A stretch of 64,000 bases of DNA from Terebella lapidaria (Eukaryota; Annelida; Polychaeta; Terebellida; Terebellidae), in assembly GCA_949152475.1 (NCBI GenBank), contig OX424564.1, positions 23,372,165-23,436,164 on the forward strand. The letters run 5' to 3'. How positions within the stretch are numbered: position 1 is the stretch's first letter; each line of letters starts with the position of its first letter. Of the stretch, positions 4,591-59,240 are shown piece by piece. Made by a program: the position numbers and the translations under genes. The notes under the pieces were generated by a model, which saw only the letters and a list, made by a program, of their open reading frames with translations, had not been told where the DNA came from and ran no database searches.

Positions 4591-5146
4591 ATAGGGACCG
4601 CCAGGAAAGGTGCATACATTTTATTTGTCTCAAGAACATTGTAACTTCCAGGCACTTCACCAAACGGTCTTTTGCTTTTGCGTGTAAATATGATGTGTGT
4701 CAGTATTATACACCGTTCTCAATGTCTTACATAATGTATGACAGGGTGCACATGTGTAAAAGAAGTATTCCCGGGTGCAATCTTAACAAGCCACAATGGG
4801 ATCTGGTATACATCTTCCCTGCATTCCGCTGTGCCTTCTGTGTCATTTATGGAGCGATATACGGTATATTTTTCAAACTATGGTGAATCTTCCAAAGTCT
4901 GTTTGCGTCACGTGACAGTTTTTTTCCGGAGGCTGTAGCAACGAGTCGAGTTATGACACAAAGTTTCTTGAGCTAGTATCCATAACAATTGTGGTAGGAT
5001 CTAAACCTTGGGGACTGTATGTAATGGCCACCGTCTATCAGAATGGAAGGTTCCATGCCTTGGACGGTGCCTAGTGGATCTTACACTTTTGTTACTTGTA
5101 GTATCGCATCATTGTCTCCAGTGCGTTCCTGATAAACGTAAAATAG

Positions 5147-6528
5147 TGTAACGGTTTTGGGGCGTACCCAAAGGTTTCCCCTAGGTAATTCTGTTAGTGT
5201 TTTGTGATATTATGGTTAAATAACCGTTTATTAGGGTGTATATGTGTTTAAAGGTTCATACGGTTCCGTATTGTTAATGTTTTAAAGGTTTTCCGTCTCG
5301 GAACTTAGTAATTTATGATGTTGGTAAAGCCGGAGACGGATCCGGAGACGGAGACGGAACCGGAGACGGAGCCGGAACAATGGAGTACAAAAACGTAATG
5401 ACGTTATTTCCGGAAGGTCATGTGATCAGCCTCGTTTTCGGTTTAAAAGGTGACGTGTCAGCCACTGATTGGTTCTAGAGTGTTTTTAGAAATCCGGAAA
5501 ATATCAGTGTTTTGGCGGACTATGACGTCACAATAGGTTGGTCACGTGACGTGGGTCTCAGGTCTATAAAAGCCCCCGCTTCACAGCGGACGGCGGAGTT
5601 GGTGTCCTGACGTCGACCTGTGCAGACCCCTTCTCCCATAGCAGAGTACTCCCTTGTTCCGGATAGAGTCATCCAGATGATAGCAGTTAAGTCTTCCGAC
5701 TGTGAACTTGGAAAATAAACATGAAAACTTCAACCGAGTTGTTTTTCCGTGTTCGTTAGGGAACTGGAATTTATAATAAAGTTAGTTCACCGGAAAAGAA
5801 AGTAATACGGAGTAAAGGGAGATAAGACTACAGTCGGTTAAGACCAAGTTGTAAAGACGTCTTAGGGTGATCCAAGAACCCAGATCACCGAGGAAGGAGA
5901 CGGAGACGGAGGTGGAATTCGACGGAGCAACTACGGAGGCGGTATCGGACGGAGCAGTTGCAGAGACGGGAACGACGAAGCAGTTGCAGAGGCGGTACCG
6001 GACGACTGAGTTGCAGAGGCAGTACCTGACGGAGCGGTTGCGGTAACCGGAAGTGGGAACACTTCCGAGATACTCCATTTCAGGTGCAGTCGCAGGTTGC
6101 GGTGAGGCGGAGCCAACCGGAGCAGATTGCAGTGCGGCGGAACCTGGCAGAGCGGTTGCAGTATTCGGAAACGGCAACGTTCCCGGATTCTTTATTCCAG
6201 GCGCAGTCGCAGTTTGCAGTAAGACGGAAAACGACGGAGCTGTTGCAGTAAAGCGGTTTCCCGACGGAGCAGTTGCAGTACCCGGAGACGGAAACGCCTC
6301 CGGATCCTTGCTTTACAGGTGCAGTTGCAGATTAGCAGTCGGACAACGGTTAAGAGGTCCATTCCAGACCACGCTACCAACCTTAGAGACTTCTAGCCGG
6401 AGTTCAACCGTACAGCAGTAGCAGTTTCCCGGAGTTTTACCGTTTCAGCTCCGGTTAAACAACAACTCACCCACCTCCCTAGAAAACCGGTTCATCAAGA
6501 CGTCACAGAAGGGTGCAAACCCGTTACA
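5147..6528 (+). repeat. Element 1, 5' LTR
   Basis: 1382 bp, matching 16257-17638 at a constant offset of 11,110. It begins TGTAACGG and ends CCGTTACA, a perfect 8-bp terminal inverted repeat with canonical TG...CA ends. The promoter lies at 5468-5572. The downstream half (about 5900-6440) is made of degenerate 30-45-bp phrases containing 'gcagttgcag' and 'ggagacgga'. Small reading frames in it are repeated exactly in the 3' LTR and are not genes. Confidence 0.95.
5468..5572 (+). promoter_or_regulatory. Element 1 LTR promoter (ATTGG, CRE, E-box, TATA)
   Basis: In order: inverted CCAAT box ATTGG (5468-5472), CRE-type TGACGTCA (5523-5530), palindromic E-box TCACGTGA (5542-5549) and TATAAAAG (5565-5572). 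Transcription should begin about 25-30 bp beyond the TATA box. The same set is in the 3' LTR at 16578-16682. The same motifs recur in both internal promoters. These are motif matches; binding is not shown. Confidence 0.65.
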
Positions 6529-6534
6529 ACTTTT

Positions 6535-6552
6535 TGGTGGCAGCGGTGGGAT
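6535..6552 (+). other. Primer binding site, tRNA-Leu type
   Basis: TGGTGGCAGCGGTGGGAT starts 6 bp after the LTR end. It is complementary to the 3' end (including CCA) of metazoan tRNA-Leu of the AAG/TAG class, whose T-arm/acceptor reads ATCCCACCGCTGCCA plus CCA. An 18-nt match at the expected place is strong evidence for minus-strand priming by tRNA-Leu. Confidence 0.85.
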
Positions 6553-6562
6553 CATCTGCAGT

Positions 6563-7849
6563 ATGACTACTAGACGGGGCAAATTGGCGGAACAGCAGCT
6601 GAAGGCAGCCGTGTCGGACACGGAGCAGCCTGTAGGAGCAGTAGGAGCTGAGCCGTTGCAGATGCCGGTTGCGGAAAAGGAAGCGGTTCGTCCTGCCGAG
6701 CGGAAGCTGTTGCAGCCGGAAATGCAGAAAGCAGTTGCAGACGAGCCCCTCCGGGTTCCTCAAGGAGAACAGCCTGCAGAGCAGTTAGCAGAGGCGGAAG
6801 TTAACTTTCCGGACCAGGCTGGCGATCGGGAACCGGATGCGGACCCGGAAGGCGGAGAGAATTTAGTCGACAACCTGACCAGATTATTGGCGACCCAAAT
6901 GGAGGTGTTTCAGCAGCACCTGGCAGTAACCGGAAAGCAGCAGCAGGCAGAAGCAGTACAACAGCCAGCACCAAGGGCAGGAGTAGCCAGATTAATGACA
7001 TACGACGGAACTGATCCGTGGCCGGAATATGAGGCTCACCTCCTTGAATACGCTCGGTACTACCGTTGGACAGCAGAGGAAAAGGCGCTGAACTTATGTG
7101 TCAGTTTGAGGGGTAACGCCCGCAGCATACTACTGGATCTGTCCGCGGAGCAGAGACGCAGCTTTGATACGGTTGTGGCGGCATTAAAACAGCAGTTTTG
7201 TCCGGGGGAGAAAACATTTGTTTTCCAGGCAGAATTGCAGACACGGAAATTGCAGCCGGAGGAGGAGCTGTCCGAGCTGGCCAGAGACATACGGAGCAAG
7301 ACGCGGCTAGCTTACCCAAAAGCAGATCCGGCAACAACAGAAGTGCTCATGAAGATGCATTTCTGCAACAGCCTGACTAACCGAGATATGCGGTTGTCGG
7401 TATTGAAAAGCCACCCGGAAACGCTGTCGCAGGCCCTGGCTTTCGCTACCGAGTATGAGAGTATCATGAAAACGGACAACAGCAGACCAGCGGAGCGACA
7501 CCGGACGAGGCAGCTGAACACGGAGCCGGAGTGGAGCCAGCAGGTGAACGAATTGCGGAAGCAAGCCGAGCAGACTCAGCAGCAGATGGCGGATCTGATG
7601 ACTCAGGTCAAGGAAGCGGTTAGCCGGCAGCAGCAGCAGCGCAGTTCCCGAGCGGATTTAGAATGTTTCAACTGTGGCCGGAAAGGGCATTTTGCCCGAG
7701 ACTGTAGGCAGCCGAAGCAGCAGCAGCAGCGGCGTCAACCACAACAGCAGCAGTCGCCGCGACAACAGCAGCAGCAGCAGCAGCCGCAGCAGCAGCAGCA
7801 GCAACAATTGCAGCAGCCACGACAGCAGCAGCAGCAGCCGGAAAACTAG
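6563..7849 (+). CDS. gag: Gag polyprotein of Gypsy element 1
   Basis: A 428-residue structural protein that should form the cytoplasmic particle and package the RNA. Residues about 140-310 look like the retrotransposon Gag capsid region, with the 'WPEYEAHLLEYARYY' stretch followed by a helical segment. A CCHC zinc knuckle is at C368, C371, H376, C381 (CFNCGRKGHFARDC). The C-terminus is a polyglutamine tract coded by CAG/CAA repeats. The start is the first ATG after the primer site. The ORF ends TAG at 7847-7849, just after GGAAAAC (7840-7846); pol continues in the -1 frame. The knuckle and position make the call firm; capsid boundaries are approximate. Confidence 0.92.
   Translation: MTTRRGKLAEQQLKAAVSDTEQPVGAVGAEPLQMPVAEKEAVRPAERKLLQPEMQKAVADEPLRVPQGEQPAEQLAEAEVNFPDQAGDREPDADPEGGENLVDNLTRLLATQMEVFQQHLAVTGKQQQAEAVQQPAPRAGVARLMTYDGTDPWPEYEAHLLEYARYYRWTAEEKALNLCVSLRGNARSILLDLSAEQRRSFDTVVAALKQQFCPGEKTFVFQAELQTRKLQPEEELSELARDIRSKTRLAYPKADPATTEVLMKMHFCNSLTNRDMRLSVLKSHPETLSQALAFATEYESIMKTDNSRPAERHRTRQLNTEPEWSQQVNELRKQAEQTQQQMADLMTQVKEAVSRQQQQRSSRADLECFNCGRKGHFARDCRQPKQQQQRRQPQQQQSPRQQQQQQQPQQQQQQQLQQPRQQQQQPEN
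7840..7846 (+). promoter_or_regulatory. Candidate -1 ribosomal frameshift heptamer, gag-pol
   Basis: GGAAAAC sits directly before the gag stop, read as GAA AAC in gag. The -1 frame (GGA AAA) is open upstream through the CAG tract and continues into pol. The same heptamer in the same register occurs at the gag end of element 2. It does not meet the classic X-XXY-YYZ rule in its first three bases, so this is a proposal. Confidence 0.45.
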
Positions 7850-7911
7850 AGCGGGTCGCGGAAAAGGGGAAATCCGGGACCCGGAAGAGAGGACACCCCC
7901 ATAACCGGCAG

Positions 7912-10900
7912 GTGGTTCACGGACCCGGTCCCAGGGGCGAGGTGGGCATGTGTGTGACAGCCAGAGTATGCGGAGAGCCAGTAACGCTGATAATCGACAC
8001 CGGCAGCACTGTCACAATGCTCAACCTACAAACCTGGGAACGGATCCGGAAACCCGGAATGAAGCTGAAGCGGTCGCCGATTCGTCTTTCAATGGTTGAC
8101 GGAAGTAACATACGGACACATGGCCGGAAAGAACTCCCACTCAACATCGCAGGAGTAGCTGAGACCGTGACGTTCGAGATTGCAGACTGTGAAGACGAAG
8201 GAATACTGGGGATGGATTTCATCCGTTCCCAAGTATCCGGCATAAACTTCGACCGGATGACCATGCAGATGGGCAGCCAGGAGGTGTTCCTCACCATGTT
8301 CGAGCAGACCAGGGAGCCGTTTCCGATCAACGCTGTAGCAGATTACCAAATTCCGCCGGAAACGGAACAGCTGATTATAGGACAAGCAGAGAGTGTCCGT
8401 GAAGCAGAAGGAGTACTAGAAATGCCGCAGGAGCCTACGGAGAAAAGACCTTGGCTGATCGGGAGAACTTTATCCCGGATAAAGCAAGGAACAGTCCCGG
8501 TTCGAGTGATCAACGTGATGGCAGAGCCGGTAATCATCAAGAAAGGAGCGCAGTTGGCGACGATGACCACCTTAGCAGCCGGTTGCAGTGTTGTGCCGTT
8601 GGCGGAGCGGAGCCGGAAGGTGCAGATTTCCACGGAGTCGGAGGCCGGGCGGAATTGGAGCGGGTACGAGAAGCTGCGGCAGTTAGCAGAGCAGACCCAG
8701 GATGCAGTGCCGAGTCATTTCCGCGAGAGAGTAACCGACCTCCTATTTCGGAATAAGCCGACCTTCAGTAATGATGCCGGAGAACTGGGGCAGACCAACG
8801 AGGTACAACATCAGATAAACACGGGCAGTCACCGGCCGATTAAGCAGCCAACCAGACGAATTCCGCCAGACAAGAGGGAGCTGGTGAGCAGTCTGATTCA
8901 GGAGATGAAAGACAAGAACGTCATTGAAGAAAGTAGCAGTCCGTGGGCTTCACCGATTGTCCTCGTGAAGAAAAAGGATGGGACCACCCGGTTCTGCGTC
9001 GATTACCGGCGGTTAAATGCAGTCACGGAGAAAGATGCTTATCCGTTGCCGAGAATAGACGACACCATAGCAGCCTGTGCAGACGCTAAATGGTTCTCCA
9101 CTCTCGACCTGACCAGTGGCTACTGGCAGGTCGGGATGGATGAAGACGCCCGGAAAAAGTCGGCCTTCTGTGTTCCTGGCGGCCTTTACCAGTTCAAAGT
9201 AATGAGTTTCGGCTTGTGCAATGCTCCGGGTACGTTCGAGCGGTTGATGGAGAAGGTGCTAGGCGGTTTGTCCTGGAAGACCTGCCTCATATATCTGGAC
9301 GACATCATAGTCTACAGTGAGACCCTGGAGGATCACATCCGTGATCTTCAGGAGGTGTTCAGCAAGCTGAGAGAGGCAGACCTAAAAGTCAAACCGTCAA
9401 AATGCAAGTTCTTCCAGCCGGAGGTGTCTTTCCTAGGTCACATAGTCGGCAGAGACGGTATCCGCACCGACCCGGCAAAAACGGAGGCAGTACGGAAGTG
9501 GCGGACACCCACCAACCTGACGGAGCTGCGCAGTTTTCTGGGACTTTGCTCCTATTACCGGAAGTTCGTGCCGAAGTTCTCCGAGATTGCAGCGCCGCTG
9601 AATCACTTGACGGAAAAAGGGGTGCCGTTCCGGTGGCAGACGGAGCAAGAGCAGGCATTTGCAGAGCTGAAGAACCGCCTAGTATCGGCACCGATACTCG
9701 GGTACCCAAGGGAGCAAGGCCGATATATCCTGGACACGGACGCCAGTGACACCGGGCTGGGAGCAGTACTGTCACAGAAGCAGGGCAACCAGGAGCGGGT
9801 GATAACCTACTTGAGCCGCAGCCTAACCAAAGAAGAACGGAGATACTGTGTCACCCGGAAGGAGCTCCTGGCGGTTGTGTTTGCGGTACAGAAGAATAAG
9901 CAGTACTTGCTGGGACGACACTTCCTTCTTCGCACGGATCATGGCAGTCTTACCTGGCTTATGAATTTCAAGGAGCCCCAGGGGCAGGTAGCCCGGTGGA
10001 TTGAGCTCCTGAGTGAGTTTCATTTCGACATTGAACATCGTCCGGGGCGAATCCATAATAATGCGGATGCCTTGTCCAGATCCCCATGCAGCCAATGCGG
10101 AAAAATCGACTGGAAACAAGCCAAGATAGACGCCTGGAACTACGGAGAAAGAATCCGGCAGACACGAAGTGAAGAAACTCCTCAGCTCAAGCCAAGGAAG
10201 GGGGGACGCCGGAAGCGGTCAAGGGGATCGGGCGGAGAAGCAGAACTGACGGAGGAAGCAGTCCCAAGAAAGGCAGTTGCAGTAACGGAGAAAGCAGCGT
10301 CCCGGAAGCCGGTTGCGGTTGCGGTGACGGAGAAAGCAGCGTCCCGGAAGCCGGTTGCGGTTGCGGTGACGGAGAAAGCAGCGTCCCGGAAGCCGGTTGC
10401 GGTTGCGGTGACGGAGAAAGCAGCGTCCCGGAAGCCGGTTGCGGTTGCGGTGACGGAAAAAGCAGTGTTCCGGAAGCCGATTGCGGTTGCGGTGACGGAG
10501 AAGGCAGTTCCAGGAAAAGCGGATGCGGTTGCAGAGCAGATTAGGCTGGCGGAGAATGCGGACCAGGATACTGTGCTGGGGCAGAAATATCGACCAGATG
10601 ATTTGCGGAGAATGCAGCAAGCAGAACCATGGTACTCACTGGTGACGTCGCTGATCGACGGGAGCGGTACAGCTGGCAGTGCAGACTTTTCCAGCATGAG
10701 CAGCGAGGAGAAAGTGCTGTACGGGATGCGGAAGACCTTGCTGAAAGTCGACGGAGTAGTCTACCGGAAATGGAAAACGGCAGAAGGAACCAGCCGAATG
10801 CAGTTAATAACCCCGAAGGAGCTGAGACAGGAGATTTTCCGTCTGGCCCACCAGAGCCGGACGGGAGGACACCTCGGATGCAGAAGGATGGCGGCTAGCA

Positions 10901-11997
10901 TTCGGAGGCGGTATTTCTGGCCGGCTATGATGCGGGACATAAAGCGGTGGGTGCTGAGCTGTGACGAATGTGCGTCAAGAAGTATGCAGAACCTGAAACG
11001 ATCTCCGATGCAGAAATACCGGGTTGGAGCGCCCATGGAGAGGGTGGCAATGGACGTGATGGGTCCGTTGCCTAAATCCACCCGGGGGAACCGGTACATC
11101 TTAGTAATCGGTGATTACTTCACCAAGTGGGTAGAGGCTTACCCGATGCCGAATCAGGAAGCGGTGACGGTTGCGGACATATTCGTCAACCAGTTTGCAG
11201 CGCGGTACGGTATCCCGATGGAGATACACACCGACCAAGGCAGAAATTTCGAGTCCGACTTGCTGAGAAATGTTTGCAGAATCCTGGGGATTCACAAGAC
11301 ACGGACAACCGCTTTCCGACCTCAGTCGGACGGTTTCATCGAGCGATTCAACCGGACGCTGCAGCAGATCTTGAGCCTGTACGTAAGCGAGCGGCAGACC
11401 AACTGGGATCAGCTAGTTCCGTTGGCAATGGCAGCTTACCGGAGTACCCCGCAGGAGACAACCGGGCAGAGTCCCAACTTGCTGATGCTGGGCAGAGAAG
11501 TCAACACTCCGGTAGAGTTACTGATTGGCAGACCGCCGGGAGAATCAACGGCAGAAGTAACAGAGTATGGCAGTCAGCTCCGGGAGCGACTAGAGGCGGT
11601 ATACAAGGCGGTTCGAGCGAAATCTGGCAGAGAAATGGAACGGCAGAAGAAGCTGTACGACCGGAGGAAGGTCAACAATCAGTTCCAGCCAGGAGACCGA
11701 GTGTGGATGGCGGTCAAAACACGGAAGAAGGGCAAAGCTCCCAAGTTGCAGAGGAAGTGGAGCGGTCCAAAGCTAGTGCTGAGCAGATTTACCGACGTGA
11801 CCTACGAGATTGCAGAGAGTGAAACTCGACAGAAGGTGGTTCACTTCGATTTGCTGAAACCGTATAATGGCGTCAAGCATCCGAGATGGATGAAGCGAAG
11901 AATGGCGGATTCCTGGAGGCAGACGGAGCCGCCGAAGCAGAGTAGTGTTCCGGAGACGGAACCGACGGTCTCTGAGTCGGATACGGACTCGGAGTAA
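7912..11997 (+). CDS. pol: Pol polyprotein of Gypsy element 1 (protease, RT, RNase H, integrase)
   Basis: 1361 codons are counted from a GTG at 7912. No ATG is needed, because the frame is open upstream to gag and pol is probably made by -1 frameshift. Retropepsin DTG is at 29-31. The RT active site YLDD is at 461-464. RNase H 'LDTDAS' has acidic residues at 608 and 610. A 14-residue repeat (TEKAASRKPVAVAV type) fills about 782-873. The integrase H2C2 finger starts near H980. The integrase core has D1048, D1108 and E1144, an exact DDX35E. The C-terminal domain reads 'WSGPKLVLSRF...HFDLLKPY'; no chromodomain is visible. Every catalytic residue is present, so the element could be active. Confidence 0.96.
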   Translation: MVHGPGPRGEVGMCVTARVCGEPVTLIIDTGSTVTMLNLQTWERIRKPGMKLKRSPIRLSMVDGSNIRTHGRKELPLNIAGVAETVTFEIADCEDEGILGMDFIRSQVSGINFDRMTMQMGSQEVFLTMFEQTREPFPINAVADYQIPPETEQLIIGQAESVREAEGVLEMPQEPTEKRPWLIGRTLSRIKQGTVPVRVINVMAEPVIIKKGAQLATMTTLAAGCSVVPLAERSRKVQISTESEAGRNWSGYEKLRQLAEQTQDAVPSHFRERVTDLLFRNKPTFSNDAGELGQTNEVQHQINTGSHRPIKQPTRRIPPDKRELVSSLIQEMKDKNVIEESSSPWASPIVLVKKKDGTTRFCVDYRRLNAVTEKDAYPLPRIDDTIAACADAKWFSTLDLTSGYWQVGMDEDARKKSAFCVPGGLYQFKVMSFGLCNAPGTFERLMEKVLGGLSWKTCLIYLDDIIVYSETLEDHIRDLQEVFSKLREADLKVKPSKCKFFQPEVSFLGHIVGRDGIRTDPAKTEAVRKWRTPTNLTELRSFLGLCSYYRKFVPKFSEIAAPLNHLTEKGVPFRWQTEQEQAFAELKNRLVSAPILGYPREQGRYILDTDASDTGLGAVLSQKQGNQERVITYLSRSLTKEERRYCVTRKELLAVVFAVQKNKQYLLGRHFLLRTDHGSLTWLMNFKEPQGQVARWIELLSEFHFDIEHRPGRIHNNADALSRSPCSQCGKIDWKQAKIDAWNYGERIRQTRSEETPQLKPRKGGRRKRSRGSGGEAELTEEAVPRKAVAVTEKAASRKPVAVAVTEKAASRKPVAVAVTEKAASRKPVAVAVTEKAASRKPVAVAVTEKAVFRKPIAVAVTEKAVPGKADAVAEQIRLAENADQDTVLGQKYRPDDLRRMQQAEPWYSLVTSLIDGSGTAGSADFSSMSSEEKVLYGMRKTLLKVDGVVYRKWKTAEGTSRMQLITPKELRQEIFRLAHQSRTGGHLGCRRMAASIRRRYFWPAMMRDIKRWVLSCDECASRSMQNLKRSPMQKYRVGAPMERVAMDVMGPLPKSTRGNRYILVIGDYFTKWVEAYPMPNQEAVTVADIFVNQFAARYGIPMEIHTDQGRNFESDLLRNVCRILGIHKTRTTAFRPQSDGFIERFNRTLQQILSLYVSERQTNWDQLVPLAMAAYRSTPQETTGQSPNLLMLGREVNTPVELLIGRPPGESTAEVTEYGSQLRERLEAVYKAVRAKSGREMERQKKLYDRRKVNNQFQPGDRVWMAVKTRKKGKAPKLQRKWSGPKLVLSRFTDVTYEIAESETRQKVVHFDLLKPYNGVKHPRWMKRRMADSWRQTEPPKQSSVPETEPTVSESDTDSE
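10255..10530 (+). repeat. In-frame 42-bp tandem repeats in pol
   Basis: About five to six copies of a 42-bp unit encode TEKAASRKPVAVAV-like 14-mers between RNase H and the integrase zinc finger. The middle copies are almost identical, so expansion is recent. This position is normally a short tether in Gypsy pol. The DNA words (ccggaagccggttgcgg, ggttgcggttgcgg) resemble those in the LTR leader. Confidence 0.9.
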
Positions 11998-13049
11998 AGC
12001 CGCAGAGGACGCAGAAATATTAGAAGACGGAGTGAGCTGTAGAGCAGGAGAAGGAGATAGCTGAGACCCTGGTAAAACGTTGAGTTCCGGCAGAGAGCGA
12101 CCGCAAGAAGTCGAAGCAGTGAGCAAGTGCTGGTTCCGGAAACAGGGCGGAGAAAGGAAGCAGAGCGGAAAGCGGTGCAGAGACCGGATAGAGACATCCT
12201 TGAGGTTCTGACTGGTTTGAGCGCATAGTCAACCAGTCCAGGGTAGCGGCCAGGGGTCCAGAAGAACCTGGGTTAGCGGTCTAGTATCTCCAGAGAAGCA
12301 GCTACACGTCTTCCGTATTCAGAGAATTAAGACGGAAAAGTTTTCCGGCTGTAGACATCCAACCGGAGTTTCCACTTAGCAGAGACAGCAAACCGGCTGC
12401 AGATCGACAGAAGCGGTGAAACATCATTCCAGATAGGAAGGGCCCTCCTTCTGGACAAGAATGTATGCAGTTTCCAGTGTCGACAAGCAGTAATACCAGT
12501 GAGCAGATATGCAGTTGACGAAGCAGTACAGATGGCGGAAACGCCCAACTTGCAGTCTAGATGTTCGTCTGAGAGGCAGATTCAACTGGCTGAGACTCTT
12601 TTCAACCCTCCTGATGGCAGAGATACTTCAAAATTGCAGATACTTCGCTCGGAGAAGCAGTTGAAAGGGAGCCGGAAAAACCCGGAGAAGCCGGTTGAGC
12701 CGGAGACGGACACCTCTCGGTTAACGGTTGAGTTTTTGCATAATTGTGACGTCACTCCTGAGGCAGCCAATCAGCATGGAGCTTTTCAAATCACGTGAGC
12801 AGAAAGGGTATATAAGGGCCTTGAAATCGGGCTCTGACAGCAGTTGGAGAGCAGACCTCGAGCTGTGCACATCGCAGACAAAGTTTGGCGGAATCGAATC
12901 AAGTCCAGCATTTTCCGGTAGCAACAGATTTTGCAGTGAAAAACGACTAAGTGTTTCCCGGAAGACCACCAGTCCGGAGAAGCGGTGCAGAAGCGGTGCA
13001 GTAAAAGCAGTGCAGTAGATCGACAATTTCAGTTTCCCGGCCTTCCGGA
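11998..13049 (+). other. Non-coding spacer between pol and zinc-finger ORF 1
   Basis: About 1 kb with no long ATG-initiated frame that resembles a protein. It is rich in the element's words (ccggag, gcagag, cggaaa). Its last third holds the first internal promoter (12747-12816), followed by a leader of about 200 nt up to the ATG at 13050. Confidence 0.6.
12747..12816 (+). promoter_or_regulatory. Internal promoter P2 of element 1
   Basis: TGACGTCA (12747-12754), CCAAT (12767-12771), TCACGTGA (12791-12798) and TATATAAG (12809-12816), in that order within 70 bp. CCAAT to TCACGTGA is 19 bp, as in P3 (14004-14054). TCACGTGA to TATA is 10 bp. The ATG of zinc-finger ORF 1 lies 233 bp after the TATA box. 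Such a compact motif set between pol and an extra ORF supports a subgenomic transcript, although no expression data are available. Confidence 0.65.
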
Positions 13050-13814
13050 ATGGCCTACTCGGCGTTCCTTGATAGACAAGATCGCGGCCGGAGCAGAGAC
13101 TGGGCAACCCCGCAGCCACTGGATTATAGCCGGCTGTGTAAGCGGTGTGACCGGATGTTTGAGAGTGCGAGGGACCGGAGACGGCATGTGTGCCCAGCCC
13201 AAAGATTTCATTGCTGTTTGTGTGCCTTCTATGGCAACCGGGCGAACGACCTTAGGAGGCATCTCCGGGAGATGCACGGGTGGAAGTACCCTTCCGGGAA
13301 CCGTCCTCCTCAGGACGAGGCCACCCTCCACCATGTGGGAACCTTTGATTCGGCCTGGCGGGGAACAGCAACGCAGTCCCGGCATAGGCGCTTCCGGCGA
13401 TTCTGCACCCGGTCACCAAGGGAGAATACAGTTCCGGAAACTTATGCGGACCAGCTTCCGTTTGGCCCTGACTGGGATGCCGGAGCAGCCGCCCCCATCG
13501 GACAACCGGAGCAGTTAGATCTCCCGGAATGGGTTCCGGATCCACAGGGCTGTCTCCGGGCCGCCGACGACGCTCCTCCGGAAAGCTGGGATCAGGAGAT
13601 GGAGCTAATTGCAGAGGCGGTCAGAGCAGTTATGCCGGATCAAGCAGACGATTGGGAGAAACCCGAAGAGGAAGATCAGCCGGTGGAAGACTGGGAGGCA
13701 GAGATCCGGGTGTGGGAATATAGACCACCTTCTCCCACTTCGGAGCCGGAGACGGATGAGTCGGAGTATGAGACGGCAGATGAGGACTCCTGGACGGAAG
13801 CGAAGGCAGTGTGA
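13050..13814 (+). CDS. Accessory C2H2 zinc-finger protein 1 of element 1 (putative transactivator)
   Basis: 254 residues from an ATG in a good initiation context (ggaATGg). Two fingers lie at about residues 31-75: CKRCDRMFESARDRRRH followed by C (C2HC-like), then CCLCAFYGNRANDLRRH followed by REMH. The remainder is acidic and proline-rich, ending in a stretch loaded with E and D (for example 'EPETDESEYETADEDSW'), which looks like an acidic activation region. It lies between pol and the 3' LTR with its own promoter and is not a known Gypsy protein class to me. A DNA-binding activator of the element's promoters is the natural hypothesis; RNA binding is possible. Confidence 0.8.
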   Translation: MAYSAFLDRQDRGRSRDWATPQPLDYSRLCKRCDRMFESARDRRRHVCPAQRFHCCLCAFYGNRANDLRRHLREMHGWKYPSGNRPPQDEATLHHVGTFDSAWRGTATQSRHRRFRRFCTRSPRENTVPETYADQLPFGPDWDAGAAAPIGQPEQLDLPEWVPDPQGCLRAADDAPPESWDQEMELIAEAVRAVMPDQADDWEKPEEEDQPVEDWEAEIRVWEYRPPSPTSEPETDESEYETADEDSWTEAKAV

Positions 13815-13912
13815 AAGTAGACGGAGGCGGTTGGCAGTATAGCGGTTGACGGAGGCGGTTGGCAGTTTGGCGGAGACGGAAGAAGCGGTGGCAGTTAGCA
13901 GCAACAACACGG

Positions 13913-13953
<41 letters not shown>
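13913..13953 (+). other. Internal 41-nt poly(A) tract
   Basis: An uninterrupted run of 41 A lies about 100 bp after the stop of zinc-finger ORF 1 and 50 bp before the CCAAT box of the next promoter. It resembles the tail of a processed mRNA frozen into the element. An alternative is simple slippage expansion of an A-rich spot. No AATAAA signal is visible just upstream. Confidence 0.85.
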
Positions 13954-13956
<3 letters not shown>

Positions 13957-14003
13957 TATTTATCCAAGAAGACCACCAGGAGGAGTTGCAGTTTGCTGAG
14001 CAG

Positions 14004-14054
14004 CCAATCATCAAGCAGATAAGCCAGTCACGTGACTTCCAGAGACTATAAAAG
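14004..14054 (+). promoter_or_regulatory. Internal promoter P3 of element 1
   Basis: CCAAT (14004-14008), TCACGTGA (14028-14035) and TATAAAAG (14047-14054). The CCAAT to E-box spacing (19 bp) equals that in P2 and the E-box to TATA spacing is 11 bp against 10 bp. The ATG of zinc-finger ORF 2 is 77 bp after the TATA box. P2 and P3 look like two copies of one promoter cassette. Confidence 0.65.
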
Positions 14055-14131
14055 GGGCAGTTAGCTGTTACCGGATGCAGAAGGCAGTTTGCTGTAGCTG
14101 AGTCAACATCGATACAAAGCAGAGAATCAGA

Positions 14132-15991
14132 ATGCCGAAAGTAAAGACAACACCCCGCAAGCCCCGCCCTCACCGGTGTGGAGACTGCAACCTAGAGTTC
14201 AAGAGCAAGCACACGTTGCTCCGGCATGTCACGGAGCAGCACACAAGTGAAGTCACCGTCTTCGCCTGTCCGCAGTGTGACCATTGGAGCAGACGGAAAG
14301 AGGGAACACAGAAGCATCTGCAGTCCCGGCACGCAATGGACGCAAACCCGATTCGACTGAGGGTGGGCAGAGAGCAGTTTGAGGAGAAAAGCCTCCGGTC
14401 CAAGATGACCCCACGGAAAAGCAAGAAGCCGGTAACACGGCTTGACCAGTTGTCGGATACGGAGTCGGAATCGGGAGGTTCGGTTTCGTCCCGGACCCGG
14501 TACCGTTCCGGTACCCAGTCGGTGGCCACACTAGCAGCCGACGTTTCGTCCACGGAGGCGGAGAGCAGTTCGGAAGAGGAAGCGGAGCTGAAAATCATGG
14601 CAAGTGAAGACGAGTTGCAGGAACCAGGAGAACCGAAGCCGGTTAAGCCGCCTGTGACCCGGAGTTCTTCCCGGAACACCTCCCGGAAAAACAGCCCTGA
14701 CCCATCTCGAGGTACCGGAGCAGATCGAGACCGCGGAAAGAAGCGGAGTCGCAGCCGTTCGCCGGATAAATCCGGACGCCATCAACGCCGAGAATATAGG
14801 AAGGAGAGCCCGGAGCGAGCCAAGGACCGAGGCGGAGAACGTGGTCGAGAGGAGAAACGACACACCCCACCCAAGTCTTCCGGAGGCAGCGTCAAGGGAA
14901 AAGGCAAGGGGGTGTATGACTACAAGTTCCGGCTGTTGGAGGAAGGTTCCAGCGGAGCAACGGCAGAAGTGGGAGTGGCGGACATTGCGGAAATGCAGAG
15001 CCGAGACGATGAGGAAGACCTTTTCCGGAGTCCACCTCCGAGAACAACTAGCAGTGGCAGAGCAGTGAGCAGTGTGATTGTCCGGCCCGGAGGCGGAGCA
15101 GAAATCAGATCCAGCGGCCGAGCCGATAGCAGAGCAGATAGCCGAGCCGATAGCAGAGCAGATAGAGCAGATAGCAGAGCAGATAGCCGAGCGGACAGCA
15201 GACCCATTGGCAGATCAGGAGGCAGACCGGAGACCAAAACGGAAGGCGGAACCCGGAGCAGAGCTGGCAGTGAGACGGAGACCCGAGGATCCACGGAGCG
15301 AACTTTGCCGGCAACCATTCAAGCAGTAGCCGGAAGCAGAACCAGTTCAGCGGCTAGGGATGACGGAATGGAGTCTTCCGCGTCTGAACGAAGCCATGCG
15401 GACGTGCAGAGAGCCCGGAGGAGTATCCTGGTAGACCAAGCCAGAGCTACACCCGGAATCCTGTCTCCGGTGGAGACCCGGCCTCGACAGTCTTCCAGTG
15501 AGCGGTCCGGAAGGAGCCAAGTCCGAGCACCAACCCAGAGTCCACCCTACACATTCTACCCGTTTGGCGGTCCTTCAACTCAACCGTGTCCGTCACATTG
15601 TTTCCCGGTGAATATTGGGGGACGGAGCGCTTCCGTCTTTGCGCCCGCAGTCCCGGAGCACGCCAGATACTATGCAGTACGTTGGGGACCGGAGCAGTGG
15701 GGGCCAGCCGAGATGAGAGACTCCGGCGTCTACGTGGAGATCATGGAGCAGAGAGAGTCACCGTTTGGTCTCGTCCCGACCCGTCAGATCGTCCGGATTC
15801 CAGATTGGTCCATCCGAGACGAACGCCTCAGGAATGGGTTCTACGTCCCGCCCCAGTGGAGCCTCCATGATCCGGATCTTCTCCCGGTTGATGCCAGAGG
15901 GACAAGCTTCGGACGACCGTTGGTACCACAGACCTTTCCACCGCGTCCGCCGTCGGGGAGCAGTTCGCGCCGTGATACTGGTGGGCAGTAG
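14132..15991 (+). CDS. Accessory C2H2 zinc-finger/SR-rich protein 2 of element 1
   Basis: 619 residues from ATG 14132. The N-terminus has two C2H2 fingers: CGDCNLEFKSKHTLLRH then TEQH, and CPQCDHWSRRKEGTQKH then QSRH (about residues 12-62). Next come acidic/serine stretches, an SR-like basic region (about 205-245, 'KKRSRSRSPDKSGRHQRR'), which could be a nuclear signal or splicing-factor-like domain, and SRAD repeats near 335-360. The C-terminal 140 residues are proline/tryptophan-rich and resemble nothing I know. ORFs 1 and 2 share the two-finger N-terminal plan and promoter layout, so they may be duplicates with diverged tails. Role unknown; nuclear regulation of element transcription or RNA processing is inferred. 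Confidence 0.8.
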   Translation: MPKVKTTPRKPRPHRCGDCNLEFKSKHTLLRHVTEQHTSEVTVFACPQCDHWSRRKEGTQKHLQSRHAMDANPIRLRVGREQFEEKSLRSKMTPRKSKKPVTRLDQLSDTESESGGSVSSRTRYRSGTQSVATLAADVSSTEAESSSEEEAELKIMASEDELQEPGEPKPVKPPVTRSSSRNTSRKNSPDPSRGTGADRDRGKKRSRSRSPDKSGRHQRREYRKESPERAKDRGGERGREEKRHTPPKSSGGSVKGKGKGVYDYKFRLLEEGSSGATAEVGVADIAEMQSRDDEEDLFRSPPPRTTSSGRAVSSVIVRPGGGAEIRSSGRADSRADSRADSRADRADSRADSRADSRPIGRSGGRPETKTEGGTRSRAGSETETRGSTERTLPATIQAVAGSRTSSAARDDGMESSASERSHADVQRARRSILVDQARATPGILSPVETRPRQSSSERSGRSQVRAPTQSPPYTFYPFGGPSTQPCPSHCFPVNIGGRSASVFAPAVPEHARYYAVRWGPEQWGPAEMRDSGVYVEIMEQRESPFGLVPTRQIVRIPDWSIRDERLRNGFYVPPQWSLHDPDLLPVDARGTSFGRPLVPQTFPPRPPSGSSSRRDTGGQ

Positions 15992-16243
15992 TCGTCGCAA
16001 GTCGTCGCAAGTCAAGTCGGCGCAAGGAGAAGAAAGAAGAACCGTTTCCCGGATTCTAGTATAATTAAGAGTTAAAAAGTGGGAAACGGAACAAGCAAGA
16101 TATCCGGGTACAGTGACGGTAAACTAGTTAAGAGATACCAGTACCCGGATCACGGAGACAAGTTGTGTTTGATTTTACGGACAGTTTAACGGTTGACAAT
16201 TTGTATATATGTGATATTGTTCTGTTCGGGACGAACAGAGTCT

Positions 16244-16256
16244 AAGGAAGGGGGAG
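16244..16256 (+). other. Polypurine tract of element 1
   Basis: AAGGAAGGGGGAG abuts the 3' LTR start (TGTAACGG at 16257), the expected place for the plus-strand primer. Confidence 0.85.
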
Positions 16257-17638
16257 TGTAACGGTTTTGGGGCGTACCCAAAGGTTTCCCCTAGGTAATT
16301 CTGTTAGTGTTTTGTGATATTATGGTTAAATAACCGTTTATTAGGGTGTATATGTGTTTAAAGGTTCATACGGTTCCGTATTGTTAATGTTTTAAAGGTT
16401 TTCCGTCTCGGAACTTAGTAATTTATGATGTTGGTAAAGCCGGAGACGGATCCGGAGACGGAGACGGAACCGGAGACGGAGCCGGAACAATGGAGTACAA
16501 AAACGTAATGACGTTATTTCCGGAAGGTCATGTGATCAGCCTCGTTTTCGGTTTAAAAGGTGACGTGTCAGCCACTGATTGGTTCTAGAGTGTTTTTAGA
16601 AATCCGGAAAATATCAGTGTTTTGGCGGACTATGACGTCACAATAGGTTGGTCACGTGACGTGGGTCTCAGGTCTATAAAAGCCCCCGCTTCACAGCGGA
16701 CGGCGGAGTTGGTGTCCTGACGTCGACCTGTGCAGACCCCTTCTCCCATAGCAGAGTACTCCCTTGTTCCGGATAGAGTCATCCAGATGATAGCAGTTAA
16801 GTCTTCCGACTGTGAACTTGGAAAATAAACATGAAAACTTCAACCGAGTTGTTTTTCCGTGTTCGTTAGGGAACTGGAATTTATAATAAAGTTAGTTCAC
16901 CGGAAAAGAAAGTAATACGGAGTAAAGGGAGATAAGACTACAGTCGGTTAAGACCAAGTTGTAAAGACGTCTTAGGGTGATCCAAGAACCCAGATCACCG
17001 AGGAAGGAGACGGAGACGGAGGTGGAATTCGACGGAGCAACTACGGAGGCGGTATCGGACGGAGCAGTTGCAGAGACGGGAACGACGAAGCAGTTGCAGA
17101 GGCGGTACCGGACGACTGAGTTGCAGAGGCAGTACCTGACGGAGCGGTTGCGGTAACCGGAAGTGGGAACACTTCCGAGATACTCCATTTCAGGTGCAGT
17201 CGCAGGTTGCGGTGAGGCGGAGCCAACCGGAGCAGATTGCAGTGCGGCGGAACCTGGCAGAGCGGTTGCAGTATTCGGAAACGGCAACGTTCCCGGATTC
17301 TTTATTCCAGGCGCAGTCGCAGTTTGCAGTAAGACGGAAAACGACGGAGCTGTTGCAGTAAAGCGGTTTCCCGACGGAGCAGTTGCAGTACCCGGAGACG
17401 GAAACGCCTCCGGATCCTTGCTTTACAGGTGCAGTTGCAGATTAGCAGTCGGACAACGGTTAAGAGGTCCATTCCAGACCACGCTACCAACCTTAGAGAC
17501 TTCTAGCCGGAGTTCAACCGTACAGCAGTAGCAGTTTCCCGGAGTTTTACCGTTTCAGCTCCGGTTAAACAACAACTCACCCACCTCCCTAGAAAACCGG
17601 TTCATCAAGACGTCACAGAAGGGTGCAAACCCGTTACA
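16257..17638 (+). repeat. Element 1, 3' LTR
   Basis: 1382 bp. I found no difference from the 5' LTR on reading, and all reading frames in it are exact repeats of those in the 5' LTR. It carries the promoter motifs at TGACGTCA 16633-16640, TCACGTGA 16652-16659 and TATAAAAG 16675-16682. Confidence 0.95.
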
Positions 17639-18034
17639 ATATAGCTTGCTACCGCTTTACATCCACGTTTTTCACGTTTGGTGCAGACAGTGGGGCTACA
17701 ATAAGTACTTTGCATTCAAAGTTTTTTTTTGATATCTGATATCTTAGTGCATGTCGGTAACGGCATACCGAAGACCGACAAAGGCGTTACAGGCTCCCAC
17801 TTCAGTCGTGACAATGGTTTGATTTTCAAACGAGTCTTCCCTGGGAACAGAAATATCACGCCAAGAGTCTACTTTCAATAGAAATCTTTCAAAGCCAATA
17901 ACCTGGTCGCGGACCCATTCTCCCAATAAGCTTCACAACGAGCCCGACGGACCGATATATTACAATGAAGAGAAGAGCTAACAGTCTTGTCCTGGGTGAG
18001 TGATATTCTGAACAAAAAACTGTACTGATGGTAT

Positions 18035-54177: not shown

Positions 54178-54755
54178 CGCAGCCACCCTGGCTATATAAG
54201 GGAGAGCGGACGGCCGCTCTGAGAGCACTGCAACAGCGACATCGACCGTAGGGAGATCGTCACTGCCACAGCCAAGGGACTCGACGAACTCCGTGCAGAC
54301 GACTCCTTCTTCAGGGCCTTAGAGTCAACCGGGATTAGACCAACTACCTGGAGAAACCATTCGACTAAACGGGACGGGAAACTTCAACGGGAAGGGACAG
54401 AGAGACGCCGCCGGCTAAGAACTCTTTTTAGTTGTGCCCTCGTGCACTATTTATTTTTGAAATGTGATCATACAGTGCTCCATGTCTGAACTTCATATCT
54501 GTACGTCACGTGGGTGACCAGCCATACAATTGTAAGTTGATTTGATGTATATAAATCTTCAATTTATTTGCATCTGAGTTGCTTCTTGCCTAAGTGAAGC
54601 CGGTGAGCTACTGAGTGATGATACACCAACGTTGGGGAACGCCAGATTAGTGACGGCTCTCGAATCACAACGAGCGGGAGTTACAAAAGTCTATACGATC
54701 AGAGAAACCAGGTTTTTTGGGCCACACCGAAAACAAGTCCTTACTAAACGTCACA
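54178..54755 (+). repeat. Element 2, 5' LTR remnant (U3 missing)
   Basis: 578 bp matching 60808-61386; one base is missing in the T run near 54430. Homology starts at CGCAGCC, only 15 bp before the TATATAAG (54193-54200), so almost all of U3 with its motif array is absent. The end is ACGTCACA, followed by the primer site. Confidence 0.9.
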
Positions 54756-54758
54756 ACT

Positions 54759-54776: not shown

Positions 54777-54819
54777 TCCCCGAGGGTCTACTGCCAGGGA
54801 ACGAACCTCAGCATCACTC

Positions 54820-55575
54820 ATGTCCGGAGAGAACAACGAAACTGCCCCAGGAAAGACAGGAGGTGAAGAGGAAGACTCTTCGCGGACGGCCTCACTCGCG
54901 GAAGAGGAAGACGACGGTTCGCGGAAGTCGACGTTCGCGGAAGGGGACGACGACCGTTCGCGGAAGTCAACATTCGCGGAAGGGGACGACGACCGTTCGC
55001 GGAAGTCAACGTTCGCGGAAGGGGACGACGACCGTTCGCGGAAGTCAGTGTTCGCGGAGGACGACCGTTCGCGGAAGAGCAGCTTCACAACCGGGGAAGG
55101 ACGTAGTGAGAAGCAACCAGGGAGGTCGAGACCTTCCATGGGCCAGTCGACGAGTCAACAGAGACCCCGGAGCCAGACACCCGACAACCGTTTTCTTTTC
55201 ATACACGACTCTGGGTGGCAGCACGATCGAGACAGGGAGAGGTCAACCTACCTTGAGAGCGTTAGGAGGGGCCCCGAGTTCCGACGAGTGCTGGGACCGG
55301 AGTACGTCAATCTGGACGGGGAGGACGGCGAAATCTGGGCGAGGAGGGATCGGCTACAGATATCCATCAAGCCGAGGGCCGCCACTGCTGAGAACAAGGG
55401 ACCAAGCGCTAGGCCGGGACCAGATGACTGTTGGTACTGTGGGAAGCCGGGTCATCGGAAGTACCATTGTCCAGATCGGCCGCCACCTCGGACCAAGGAG
55501 GAGCGCTTGAGTCGACTAATCGAGGAGATTGGTGAGCGGAACAGTTTGACAGACGAGGAGTTGGAAAACCAGTAG
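54820..55575 (+). CDS. gag: Gag-like nucleocapsid protein of element 2 (no capsid domain)
   Basis: 251 residues from ATG 54820. Residues about 20-85 are tandem repeats of STFAEGDDDRSRK type, coded by GTTCGCGGAAG-containing DNA. A CCHC zinc knuckle is present near residue 205 (CWYCGKPGHRKYHC). There is no region like the capsid domain of element 1, and the protein is much shorter than the 428 residues there, so particle formation is doubtful. The ORF ends GAA AAC CAG TAG; GGAAAAC is at 55563-55569 and the pol frame is -1. A longer overlapping frame at 54632-55510 is a shadow produced by the repeats. Confidence 0.85.
   Translation: MSGENNETAPGKTGGEEEDSSRTASLAEEEDDGSRKSTFAEGDDDRSRKSTFAEGDDDRSRKSTFAEGDDDRSRKSVFAEDDRSRKSSFTTGEGRSEKQPGRSRPSMGQSTSQQRPRSQTPDNRFLFIHDSGWQHDRDRERSTYLESVRRGPEFRRVLGPEYVNLDGEDGEIWARRDRLQISIKPRAATAENKGPSARPGPDDCWYCGKPGHRKYHCPDRPPPRTKEERLSRLIEEIGERNSLTDEELENQ
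55563..55569 (+). promoter_or_regulatory. Candidate -1 frameshift heptamer of element 2
   Basis: GGAAAAC two codons before the gag stop, in the same register as in element 1 (7840-7846). The -1 frame continues through GGA AAA CCA GTA into pol. Its presence in two otherwise diverged elements supports a role. Confidence 0.45.
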
Positions 55576-55598
55576 GGCTCATACCAGCCCCCAACCGT

Positions 55599-58500
55599 AT
55601 GGGCCATTGGCAGGTGTGCGCACGGCTTCACAGGCGAGAGGCACGACGAAGACGCGAAGAACACATTGCCAGGGGGGAATTTTTAGTTTCACAGATTTTT
55701 AATAGGTTTTTCCGGTGTGCATCCGAAGTAACTGGATGGGCGCAGGAGGAGCTCGAGGATCGAATTCTCGACTATTTGGAGGGCAAGCCTGTCAACACAG
55801 ACGGGAGTGCCAATGTACAACAAACCGATGGAGCCGTGGAGCGTCTGGGGACCCGCGGAGACATCAACGAGGTTTCTGCTAGCAGCAAGGAAGACCAGCA
55901 AGTCACAACCTTGAGGCTAGAGGCTGCGAAACAGCAGGGACCCCCCCATTCAACTGAACCACAAGCGGCCGTGAAAGAGGAGACGGAGGGCCGGTGGAGC
56001 GGAATGACCAAGGGGCCAGCGCAGCAGCTATTGCTGGTGGACGACTCATTACTTATCCGGAGCGGCGGTTCCGAGGGGAGTGATTCCCTTAAGACTGACA
56101 GAGAGGACCAGGGTGGTGCATCACTGTGGGTGGACGACTCAGTACTTATCCAGGGCGGCTTCCCTGAGGAGAGTGGCAGCTCTCTTAAGATTGACAGAAA
56201 TGGCCAGGTGGTGTCGCTGTCAGCCGGTGCCCAAGGCACATTGGCGTGGTATGCGGCGTGCCACGTTATGGGGAAGGCGACTCGTATGTTGGTGGACACG
56301 GGTGCCTTTTCCACCGTTCTGGACGAGTGTCTCTTCGACCAAATGGATAACGAACATAAAGCAATGATAAGGCAGACGAGAATAAGGTTATGGGCAGCAA
56401 CCGGAGACTACTTACAGGTTCAAGGAGAGATGACAGTTCAACTTCTACTGGGCACACGACTCGTGTCGGCAGATGTACTGGTAGCCAAACTAGGGATCCC
56501 GGGAGTGTTGGGGCTTGATGTACTTCAACAGATTGGGGGACAGCTGGATCTGCGTAAGGGCGAGTGGCAGGTGGGCGACACTACCGTAGTGATGAGCTCG
56601 GGCCACGAGGACGCCGTCTACACACTGGTGACGGAGGAGACGGTCGTCTTGCCACCCTTTTCAGAGATGATGGTGGACCTCAAGCTGACAGGAAGTGAGG
56701 GAGGAGTTCCGAAGGCCGGCCTCGTGCAGTCCGCAAGAGAGCCGTTGGAGGACGACCCCCTCGTAGTGGGACGAGCCCTGGTACGACCCCGAGGACGCCT
56801 GGTACCGGTGGTACTTCTGAACGCCGGCGCTGGAGTTTGCACTGTGCTGATGGGGACCATCCTAGCCGAGCTTCACGGAATAGAGGCCGTGATCGACCTA
56901 GGATTTCGTCCCGATGGCGGGAAAACAACCCAGAACGAACCTAAAAGGGAACAGTGGTACCGGGAGGAGAGCGGGAGGGAGCATGAGCCCCTTACACCAA
57001 ACTCCACCAAGTGGCCGAACCGGACGCCTGAGCAGCCCGAAACCAGAGTGCACGCCATGCATGCAGAACCGTCGACGAAGACACCAGAGTGCCCGGAGCA
57101 TTTAGAACCGCTCCTGGAGGGAATGCATCCGGACTTGACGGAAAAGGAGGTGGAGGTCGTCAGCGATCTCCTTCGACGCCACCAGCAGGTCTTCATGGGA
57201 CCAGATGGGAGGTTGGGCCGGACGTCCCTGGCGAAACACGTCATCGACACGGGAGATCACCCCCCGATCAAGCAGCCACTGAGGAGAGCCCCGTACTACC
57301 AACAGGAGCTGATCGAGGACGAGGTCGACAAGATGTTGAAAGCTGACGTTGTGGAGCCAAGCGACAGTCCATGGTCGTCCCCCATCGTGCTAGTGAAAAA
57401 GAAGGATGGTGCACTGAGATTTTGCGTCGACTACCGCCGTCTAAATGATGTCACCCGGAAGGATGCGTACCCCCTGCCTCGAGTCGACGAGAGTTTTGAT
57501 ACCTTGTCAGGAGGACGATATTTTTCGATGCTAGACTTGGCTAGTGGTTACTGGCAGGTCGAGATGGACGACAGGGACAAGGAGAAGACGGCGTTCACTA
57601 CCCGTAGTGGACTCTATCAATTTAAAGTGATGCCGTTTGGATTGGCGACGGCCTCGGCTACTTTTGAACGTCTAATGGAGCTGGCGCTGAGGGGACTCCA
57701 ATGGAAGCGTTGTCTAATTTATTTGGACGATGTCGTCTGTCTTGGAAAGACTTTCCAAGAAGCCGTGGACAACCTCGAGGACGTGTTCCGGAGACTGCAG
57801 GCTGCCGGGCTGAAGCTGAAACCCGCCAAGTGTGAGCTGTTTCGACAACAGGTCAACTTCCTGGGCCATGTCGTGTCCGACCAAGGCATCCAGTGTGACC
57901 CTGCCAAAGTCGAAGCTGTGACGAATATGGTTCCTCCAACCACCTTGACAGAACTAAGGAGCTTCCTTGGGTTCGTGGGGTACTACCGCAGATTCATCCC
58001 TGACTTTGCCACCCGAGCGGGGCCCCTCAACCACCTGTTAAAGAAGGAAGTTAACTACCATTGGAGCGAGGCTCATCAGCAGGCGTTCGAGGCGTTGTGT
58101 CAACCCCTGACCGAGCACCCCCTGCTGGTGTACCCTGACATGGACCTTGAATTTATTTTAGATACTGATGCTAGCGGCTACGGAGTGGGAGGCGTCTTAT
58201 CCCAAGTGCAGGACGGACGAGAGCGGGTGATCGCCTATGCTTCCAGAACCCTGAGGGACACCCAGCAGAATTACTGCACCACCAAGCGGGAGCTCCTGGC
58301 CGTCGTCAGTATGATACACCATTTCAGACATTTCTTGTGGGGGAGAGCGTTCTTACTACGAACCGACCACGCCTCTCTCAAGTGGCTGCTGAACTTCCGG
58401 GATGCGGAGGGAATGATTGCTAGATGGGCAGCTCGCATCGCCAGCTACGCCTTCAGGTGTGAGGTCCGACCGGGAGTACAACACGGGAATGCAGACGGGA

Positions 58501-59232: not shown

Positions 59233-59240
59233 TATATAAG
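59233..59240 (+). promoter_or_regulatory. Internal TATA box of element 2
   Basis: TATATAAG, the same octamer as the LTR TATA boxes (54193-54200, 60823-60830). It lies 34 bp before the ATG of the zinc-finger gene at 59275, so a transcript would have a leader of only a few bases. Confidence 0.6.

Follow-up and report, generated by a model that had tools for sequence, protein, structure and literature searches.

A Ty3/Gypsy retrotransposon of the annelid Terebella lapidaria with two zinc-finger genes downstream of pol, each behind a putative LTR-like promoter module

Animal long terminal repeat (LTR) retrotransposons are generally taken to depend on host factors for their transcription. In the foamy viruses (Spumaretrovirinae), an internal promoter drives the tas gene, which follows the core genes; Tas is not known as a C2H2 protein. 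Tas is a virus-coded transactivator acting on both the LTR promoter and the internal promoter (PMC8670036, PMC4929722). Accessory genes after pol are already known in Gypsy elements as well. Maize Grande gene23 is a Ty3/Gypsy accessory open reading frame (ORF) between pol and the 3' LTR, with a nuclear product and its own promoter, and plant Retand TRP28 is a post-pol Ty3/Gypsy accessory ORF with predicted DNA binding (PMC7264820, PMC11963269). The sORF1 of Drosophila MDG1-group elements (412, Stalker2), an accessory protein of animal Gypsy elements, has a low ratio of nonsynonymous to synonymous substitution (dN/dS), a nuclear location and a predicted helix-turn-helix (PMC11952523). Here we describe E1, a Ty3/Gypsy LTR retrotransposon at 5147-17638 of a 64,000-nucleotide stretch of the Terebella lapidaria genome (assembly GCA_949152475.1, contig OX424564.1, positions 23,372,165 to 23,436,164, forward strand), which we call the window. 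In E1, open gag and pol genes are followed by two sense ORFs, ORF3 and ORF4, which encode zinc-finger proteins. Searches of open-access PubMed Central (PMC) listed no paper whose title or abstract start describes sense C2H2 genes with their own promoters in animal Gypsy elements; within this scope, two sense zinc-finger genes in one animal Gypsy element behind LTR-like promoters appear to be new.

The proposed likeness to foamy viruses would lie in the internal promoter, putative in E1, ahead of a downstream gene. Foamy viruses are, however, vertebrate retroviruses with an env gene, whereas E1 has two extra genes and no env recognised in its scanned ORFs; and while Tas transactivates, transactivation by the E1 products would be an argument from analogy. 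Grande and Retand are plant elements with mostly antisense accessory ORFs, in contrast to the two genes of E1, which are in sense, encode zinc fingers and follow LTR-like promoters. The sORF1 of MDG1-group elements lies upstream of gag, has about 110 residues and is attributed either to the full-length RNA or to a short transcript of 1.5 kb, whereas the E1 genes follow pol.

The Pfam matches of E1 pol run in the order protease, reverse transcriptase (RT), RNase H, integrase that marks Ty3/Gypsy elements (Metaviridae), Ty3 is the best solved relative of the protein, and the element has the TG...CA LTR ends, primer-binding site and polypurine tract of this class. A direct repeat (5145-6529 and 16255-17639) of 100% identity, trimmed at its TGTAACGG...CCGTTACA ends, gives LTRs of 1,382 bp; as these are identical, the window copy is young and the family recently active. 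The element limits and ORF coordinates of an earlier note on this DNA agree exactly with the repeat ends and open frames, and gag and pol are intact, as it had proposed, both being open with Pfam matches. The primer-binding site TGGTGGCAGCGGTGGGA is one that we take to be tRNA-Leu-like. Among the Pfam matches of pol at E <= 0.01 there is no chromodomain, which marks the integrase C-terminus of chromoviruses. A Pfam scan that covered the long ORFs recognised no env, and both post-pol ORFs gave weak finger matches alone. Between pol and ORF3 lies 1.05 kb free of long ORFs, ORF3 and ORF4 are 0.3 kb apart, and the 3' LTR follows ORF4. The flanks of the window copy (5137-5146, 17639-17648) read ATAG before and ATAT after the element, without a clear target-site duplication of the 4-6 bp usual for Ty3/Gypsy elements. 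Within pol, a 42-nt tandem repeat (10231-10566) encodes a 14-residue repeat between RNase H and integrase.

Both genes recur throughout the genome (762 Mb, 438 contigs), with at least 165 matches for ORF3 (149 of 701 candidates scored; one copy may account for two matches) and at least 71 for ORF4 (71 of 3398 candidates scored). The listed ORF3 matches include two interrupted by an in-frame stop and 17 that are partial; those listed for ORF4 are full length, four with a stop. Twenty copies were chosen for close reading from the ORF3 match list across its identity range. All 20 have the order pol end, ORF3, ORF4, where ORF3 was the ground for choosing a copy and pol and ORF4 were not; together with the many genomic matches, this rules out a single-copy occurrence. 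The 3' LTR is visible in 17 copies, the remaining three stretches stopping short of it. ORF3 is open in every one of them (L048 has a small deletion inside the fingers) and ORF4 is full length in 15, the others being cut by the fetched stretch (one), deprived of their start (one) or truncated, stopped or frameshifted (three). In L040, ORF4 breaks off at residue 222 and runs directly into an LTR, where the usual polypurine tract is missing. LTR pairs could be compared in 15 copies, and 13 of these differ by at most two bases in 559-621, one of the 13 with a 36-base gap; one further pair differs by 6 of 558 and another, with a partial 5' LTR, by 22. A 5' LTR was not found in the fetched stretch of three of the 20.

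A search with a pol query (P0031; 40 of 14224 candidates scored) listed E1-like pols among its matches, and the post-pol region was read in five pol-found copies, three with both genes and two with deletions. Two of the five, L079 and L080, were chosen for their unusual pol matches; they contain ORF3 and ORF4, the latter followed as far as the sequence extended, and L080 has lost one cysteine of the second ORF4 finger. The choice of the other three (L082, L083 and L084) was based on pols with no listed ORF3 match beside them. L082 has ORF3 plus the start of ORF4. L083 retains a partial ORF3 together with a piece of LTR and fragments of ORF4 in rearranged form. In L084, ORF3 gave no match, ORF4 is present only from residue 311 on, and 136 LTR bases equal the window LTR. 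The last two rule out that every E1 copy has both genes and imply that the ORF3 and ORF4 proteins are not needed in cis. At least one deletion copy is perhaps young, and such copies fit either proteins acting in trans or dispensable proteins. These two deletions notwithstanding, ORF3 and ORF4 occur in many copies, lie between pol and LTR and are selected, as expected of accessory ORFs (aORFs).

ORF3 and ORF4 are under purifying selection. Pairwise Nei-Gojobori sums, in which shared ancestry and possibly mosaic copies make the pairs non-independent, gave a dN/dS of 0.257 for ORF3 (21 sequences) and 0.140 for ORF4 (17 sequences, four cut or broken ones excluded), in a sample drawn by protein match and hence biased to intact frames. 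As controls, the two shifted frames of each gene gave ratios of 1.82 and 1.29 (ORF3) and of 1.90 and 3.05 (ORF4), ruling out chance ORFs. By segment, ORF3 ranges from 0.11 (fingers) to 0.30, and ORF4 has 0.011 in the fingers, 0.25 and 0.37 in the RS-rich and middle parts, and 0.052 in the C-terminal region. ORF3 is identical to the window at 197 of 219 residues in L079 and at 141 of 230 in L080; between L080 and the window its dS is 1.36 and dN 0.28 (ratio 0.21). ORF3 diverges much more between subfamilies than ORF4 (L031-L050, L079, L080), with 61% versus about 96% in L080, and insertions and deletions recur in its acidic part across E1 subfamilies. The earlier note had named confinement of the ORFs to one copy, or a lack of purifying selection, as grounds against its view; the match counts and the ratios, that of the deep ORF3 split included, contradict both. 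Genes selected in many copies do not fit a single capture; the note, too, had held a chance capture unlikely.

The second line of evidence concerns sequences shared by the LTR and the regions ahead of the two genes. The 9.7-kb internal region has two TATAWAAG sites, at 12809 ahead of ORF3 and at 14047 ahead of ORF4, a number reached by one of 1000 dinucleotide shuffles; the LTR has one such site, at 5565. The palindrome TCACGTGA lies 18-23 bp upstream (start to start) of all three TATA boxes, and the composite of both, although defined post hoc, is found twice internally and in none of 1000 shuffles; it is retained before ORF3 and ORF4 in all 22 copies checked. Exactly 27 nt before TCACGTGA, the ORF3 and ORF4 regions also have CAGCCAATCA, a layout shared by all 20 copies as well as L079 and L080, whereas the LTR is without it at this distance from its palindrome. 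The 28 nt from +31 to +58 of the LTR TATA box have their best internal match (21/28; runner-up 16) at 12841, which is +32 of the ORF3 TATA box. In local alignments, the ORF3 upstream region scores above 500 of 500 shuffles against both the ORF4 upstream region and the LTR promoter, and the ORF4 region against the LTR promoter is less distinct, with 4 of 500 shuffles as good. The predicted leaders, 212 nt from 12838 for ORF3 and 56 nt from 14076 for ORF4, contain no ATG. Variable sites are rarer in the proximal promoters (25/487) than in other noncoding sequence (94/837; Fisher p 1.4e-4, with boundaries set post hoc). Transcript starts near 12840 and 14080, which the earlier note had suggested, fit the predicted TATA boxes.

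ORF4 matches the pattern C-X2-4-C-X11-13-H-X3-5-H twice, backed by homology, with fingers starting at residues 16 and 46 and the RS-rich stretch following. In ORF3, the regular finger starts at residue 55 and matches the pattern; the preceding C-X2-C unit misses it, being without the usual second ligand pair, and we call it atypical. The paired N-terminal fingers of the earlier note thus hold for ORF4, and for ORF3 as one regular and one atypical unit; the acidic C-terminus and the SR-rich region that it described are seen in the translations of ORF3 and ORF4, respectively. Searched with phmmer against PDB sequences, the fingers of CTCF are best for ORF4 residues 1-80 (E 1.5e-17) and for the ORF3 fingers (E 3.2e-6), there spanning both units. 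This likeness is mainly in the finger scaffold, and ORF3 and ORF4 have two fingers at most. An AlphaFold2 model of the ORF4 C-terminal region reached a mean pLDDT (predicted local distance difference test) of 45.6, too poor for a structure search. Among 5.8 billion proteins, no relative at E<=0.001 was found with whole ORF4 (7993 candidates scored) or with residues 450-619 (317 candidates), and pol as control query found at least 3035 relatives (7980 candidates scored); the accessory proteins are thus either restricted to their lineage or so diverged that a word-based search misses them. In viral contigs, no relative was confirmed with ORF4, pol, ORF3 or a pol alignment, and tblastn of pol against phages gave a single short match in one record.

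Finger genes of this kind are found in two further Gypsy families. Query P0031 gave three near-full-length matches, one with stops, which we grouped as family X; the member read further (L078) has a 343-aa ORF downstream of pol that begins with two C2H2 fingers and continues S/R/P-rich. Finger pairs were compared with 1000 shuffles in which cysteines and histidines stayed fixed. The pair of family X beats all 1000 against ORF3 (z 7.9) and against ORF4 (z 3.9), and against the fingers of E2, the second element of the window, 12 shuffles were as good; the corresponding counts are 41 for ORF3 and 62 for ORF4 against E2. By this comparison, the finger genes of E1 and family X are probably related. 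That the fingers alone prove ORF3 and ORF4 to be paralogues was rejected, 33 of 1000 ligand-fixed shuffles being as good; their kinship is suggested instead by the family X fingers and the common promoter layout, and both may stem from duplication of one ancestral finger gene plus its promoter.

E2 (54178-61386) had been described in the earlier note as built on the same plan. It does have a finger gene after pol, but the plan is not quite the same: E2 belongs to another RT lineage, has one accessory ORF instead of two, and is broken in the window. Its RT is 53% identical to that of E1 and sits on a long branch of its own, exact placement unsure, and this comparison rules out E2 as part of the E1 lineage. 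An RT tree of 48 rows does not unite E1, E2 and X, the three families in which finger genes were examined, in one clade, contrary to the single element lineage that had been proposed. Contigs P0006 and P0008-P0012 (sources ena and lgn) contain pols 58-65% identical to that of E1 and form a clade with it at 100/100. The E2 accessory gene is open in seven of seven fetched copies (364-365 aa), its product having an acidic start, an RS stretch, the finger pair and a long C-terminal part; the finger part has at least 140 genomic matches (140 of 1398 candidates scored), with no stop among those listed. Between two subfamilies the gene has a dN/dS of 0.18 (shifted frames 1.56 and 1.59); in the older group, the finger segment alone has 0.67, with few changes. 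Two of seven E2 pieces cover the integrase region, L072 with a long match to E1 integrase (E 5e-82) and L071 with a weaker, partial one. The 3' end of E2 (LTR plus flank, 60808-62368) is tandemly duplicated with a 982-bp period, which yields a third LTR copy, and 15-nt tandem repeats flank the accessory gene (59034-59180, 60544-60719), with matches recurring in L071 and L072.

We give a probability of about 0.5 to the reading that E1 is a complex Ty3/Gypsy element whose internal promoters drive finger proteins that regulate the element's own promoters, in a Tas-like manner. The gag-pol mRNA would come from the LTR, and RNA polymerase II would start two shorter mRNAs at the internal promoters, near 12840 and 14077. 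Neither AATAAA nor ATTAAA occurs between pol and the 3' LTR (both LTRs contain such signals, as does gag once), from which we infer that the short mRNAs probably use the poly(A) signals in the 3' LTR as their ends and form a nested set. They would encode the ORF3 finger protein, with its activator-like acidic tail, and the ORF4 finger protein, with its RS-rich middle, and both would enter the nucleus, bind DNA and act in trans on the E1 promoters, closing a feedback whose sign, too, would be part of the proposal. With a common E-box palindrome and TATA box at all three promoters, the output of the element could be switched as one circuit.

Several observations weigh against this reading. The TATA boxes and E-boxes are sequence matches; the E-box is a binding site of host basic helix-loop-helix (bHLH) proteins, and host factors alone could therefore explain the common module. 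Counting the motifs alone, 1 of 52 sites is variable and 806 of 10000 random blocks are equally low, which leaves conservation at this level only suggestive. An ATG at 14075 lies one base ahead of the assumed ORF4 start, and slightly earlier initiation would include it as an upstream ATG. L078 of family X has no TATA match, and L083 and L084 are, in the stretch read, without parts of ORF3 and ORF4 and without both internal modules. Regarding the proteins, the Pfam finger matches (E 0.0023 and 0.0012) score lower than the curated cut-offs, the first ORF3 finger is atypical, the direct ORF3-ORF4 comparison is weak, a finger pair confers little DNA specificity, and AlphaFold2, run without relatives on the ORF4 fingers, gave no finger fold (pLDDT 63.7).

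The RS-rich regions of ORF4 and of the E2 protein, and the ability of C2H2 pairs to bind RNA, bring to mind Rev or SR proteins; the finger proteins might then bind the element's RNA, not DNA, and export it, protect it, package it or keep genomic RNA unspliced. We regard this as unlikely, given that ORF3 has an acidic tail and no RS part and that a promoter module common to the genes points to regulated timing, for which RNA binding has no need. Somewhat less likely still is an action on chromatin, in which CTCF-like fingers and the conserved C-terminal regions would let the proteins counteract silencing or choose insertion sites: CTCF fingers are the best solved relatives of both pairs, the ORF4 C-terminal region is strongly conserved and the insertions are young, but the DNA-contacting residues of CTCF are not kept in the alignments.

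The TATA boxes of the Tas-like reading would have no role if the conserved ORFs were expressed from spliced or re-initiating mRNA, which we consider improbable. A splice-site scan of E1 against a consensus found acceptor-like sites upstream, of modest score and nothing decisive, and ahead of the E2 gene a pyrimidine stretch ends in CAG in six of seven fetched copies; the missing TATA match in L078 also suits this explanation. Against it, the CAG is lost in one E2 copy and the TATA box kept in all seven, and the composite modules of E1 appeared in no shuffle. That the ORFs are functionless passenger fragments of host genes is hardly credible. In its favour, C2H2 fingers are common in animal genomes, the A-tract after ORF3 (13913-13953) may derive from the tail of an mRNA captured in the past, and parts of the genes are missing from some copies; the many copies in several subfamilies and the low dN/dS at large dS contradict it.

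Table 1. Features of E1 and E2 in the window (window coordinates).
Feature	Coordinates	Strand	Remarks
E1 5' LTR	5147..6528	+	ends TGTAACGG...CCGTTACA; no difference from 3' LTR
LTR promoter module (putative)	5542..5572	+	TCACGTGA (5542), TATAAAAG (5565)
E1 primer-binding site	6535..6551	+	TGGTGGCAGCGGTGGGA; identical in 17/17 copies with 5' LTR found (20 inspected)
E1 gag, 428 aa, CCHC knuckle	6563..7849	+	open frame, Pfam match
E1 pol: protease, RT, RNase H, integrase	7912..11997	+	open frame, Pfam matches
ORF3 promoter module (putative)	12764..12816	+	CAGCCAATCA (12764), TCACGTGA (12791), TATATAAG (12809); kept in 20/20 copies and in L079, L080
Predicted ORF3 transcript start region	12841..12868	+	top internal match to LTR stretch at near-equal TATA distance
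ORF3, 254 aa: atypical finger, then regular C2H2 finger; C-terminus acidic	13050..13814	+	
A-tract, 41 A	13913..13953	+	between ORF3 and ORF4 promoter; main run varies from 17 to 50 among the 20 copies fetched
ORF4 promoter module (putative)	14001..14054	+	CAGCCAATCA (14001), TCACGTGA (14028), TATAAAAG (14047)
ORF4, 619 aa: C2H2 finger pair, then RS-rich middle and conserved C-terminal region	14132..15991	+	
E1 polypurine tract	16244..16256	+	AAGGAAGGGGGAG; unchanged in 14/15 copies where read
E1 3' LTR	16257..17638	+	direct-repeat comparison
E2 5' LTR, about 579 bp	54178..54755	+	99.3% to the other two LTR copies
E2 gag-like ORF	54820..55575	+	position and CCHC-like motif by eye; no Pfam match
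E2 pol, most of integrase missing	55599..58682	+	
E2 TATA match	59233..59240	+	TATATAAG; 42 nt ahead of accessory ATG (59275); identical in 7/7 fetched copies
E2 accessory gene	59275..60369	+	window copy stopped between RS part and fingers
E2 3' LTR	60808..61386	+	

Elsewhere in the window, two ORFs for rhodopsin-type G-protein-coupled receptors (25630-26760 and 28975-29802) have in common at least 300 identical bases, repeated at a distance of 3,042 bp; by sequence, the pair is a recent tandem duplication.

Beyond E1 itself, we put forward tentatively, and at less than even odds, that an animal Gypsy lineage evolved a self-contained transcription circuit independently of retroviruses. In it, duplication of a finger gene with an LTR-derived promoter would have given rise to two proteins, one an acidic activator and the other a regulator of RS type, which would control the LTRs and their own promoters in trans and also serve the deletion copies; such genes may represent a widespread old module shared or exchanged among the Gypsy families of the host. 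With well over a hundred closely similar copies, E1 is amenable to ordinary RNA-seq and binding assays in Terebella lapidaria. If the Tas-like reading is true, complex retroviruses would have a non-retroviral counterpart in this abundant animal Gypsy family of recent activity, which could reveal how LTR elements acquire regulatory genes or evade silencing.

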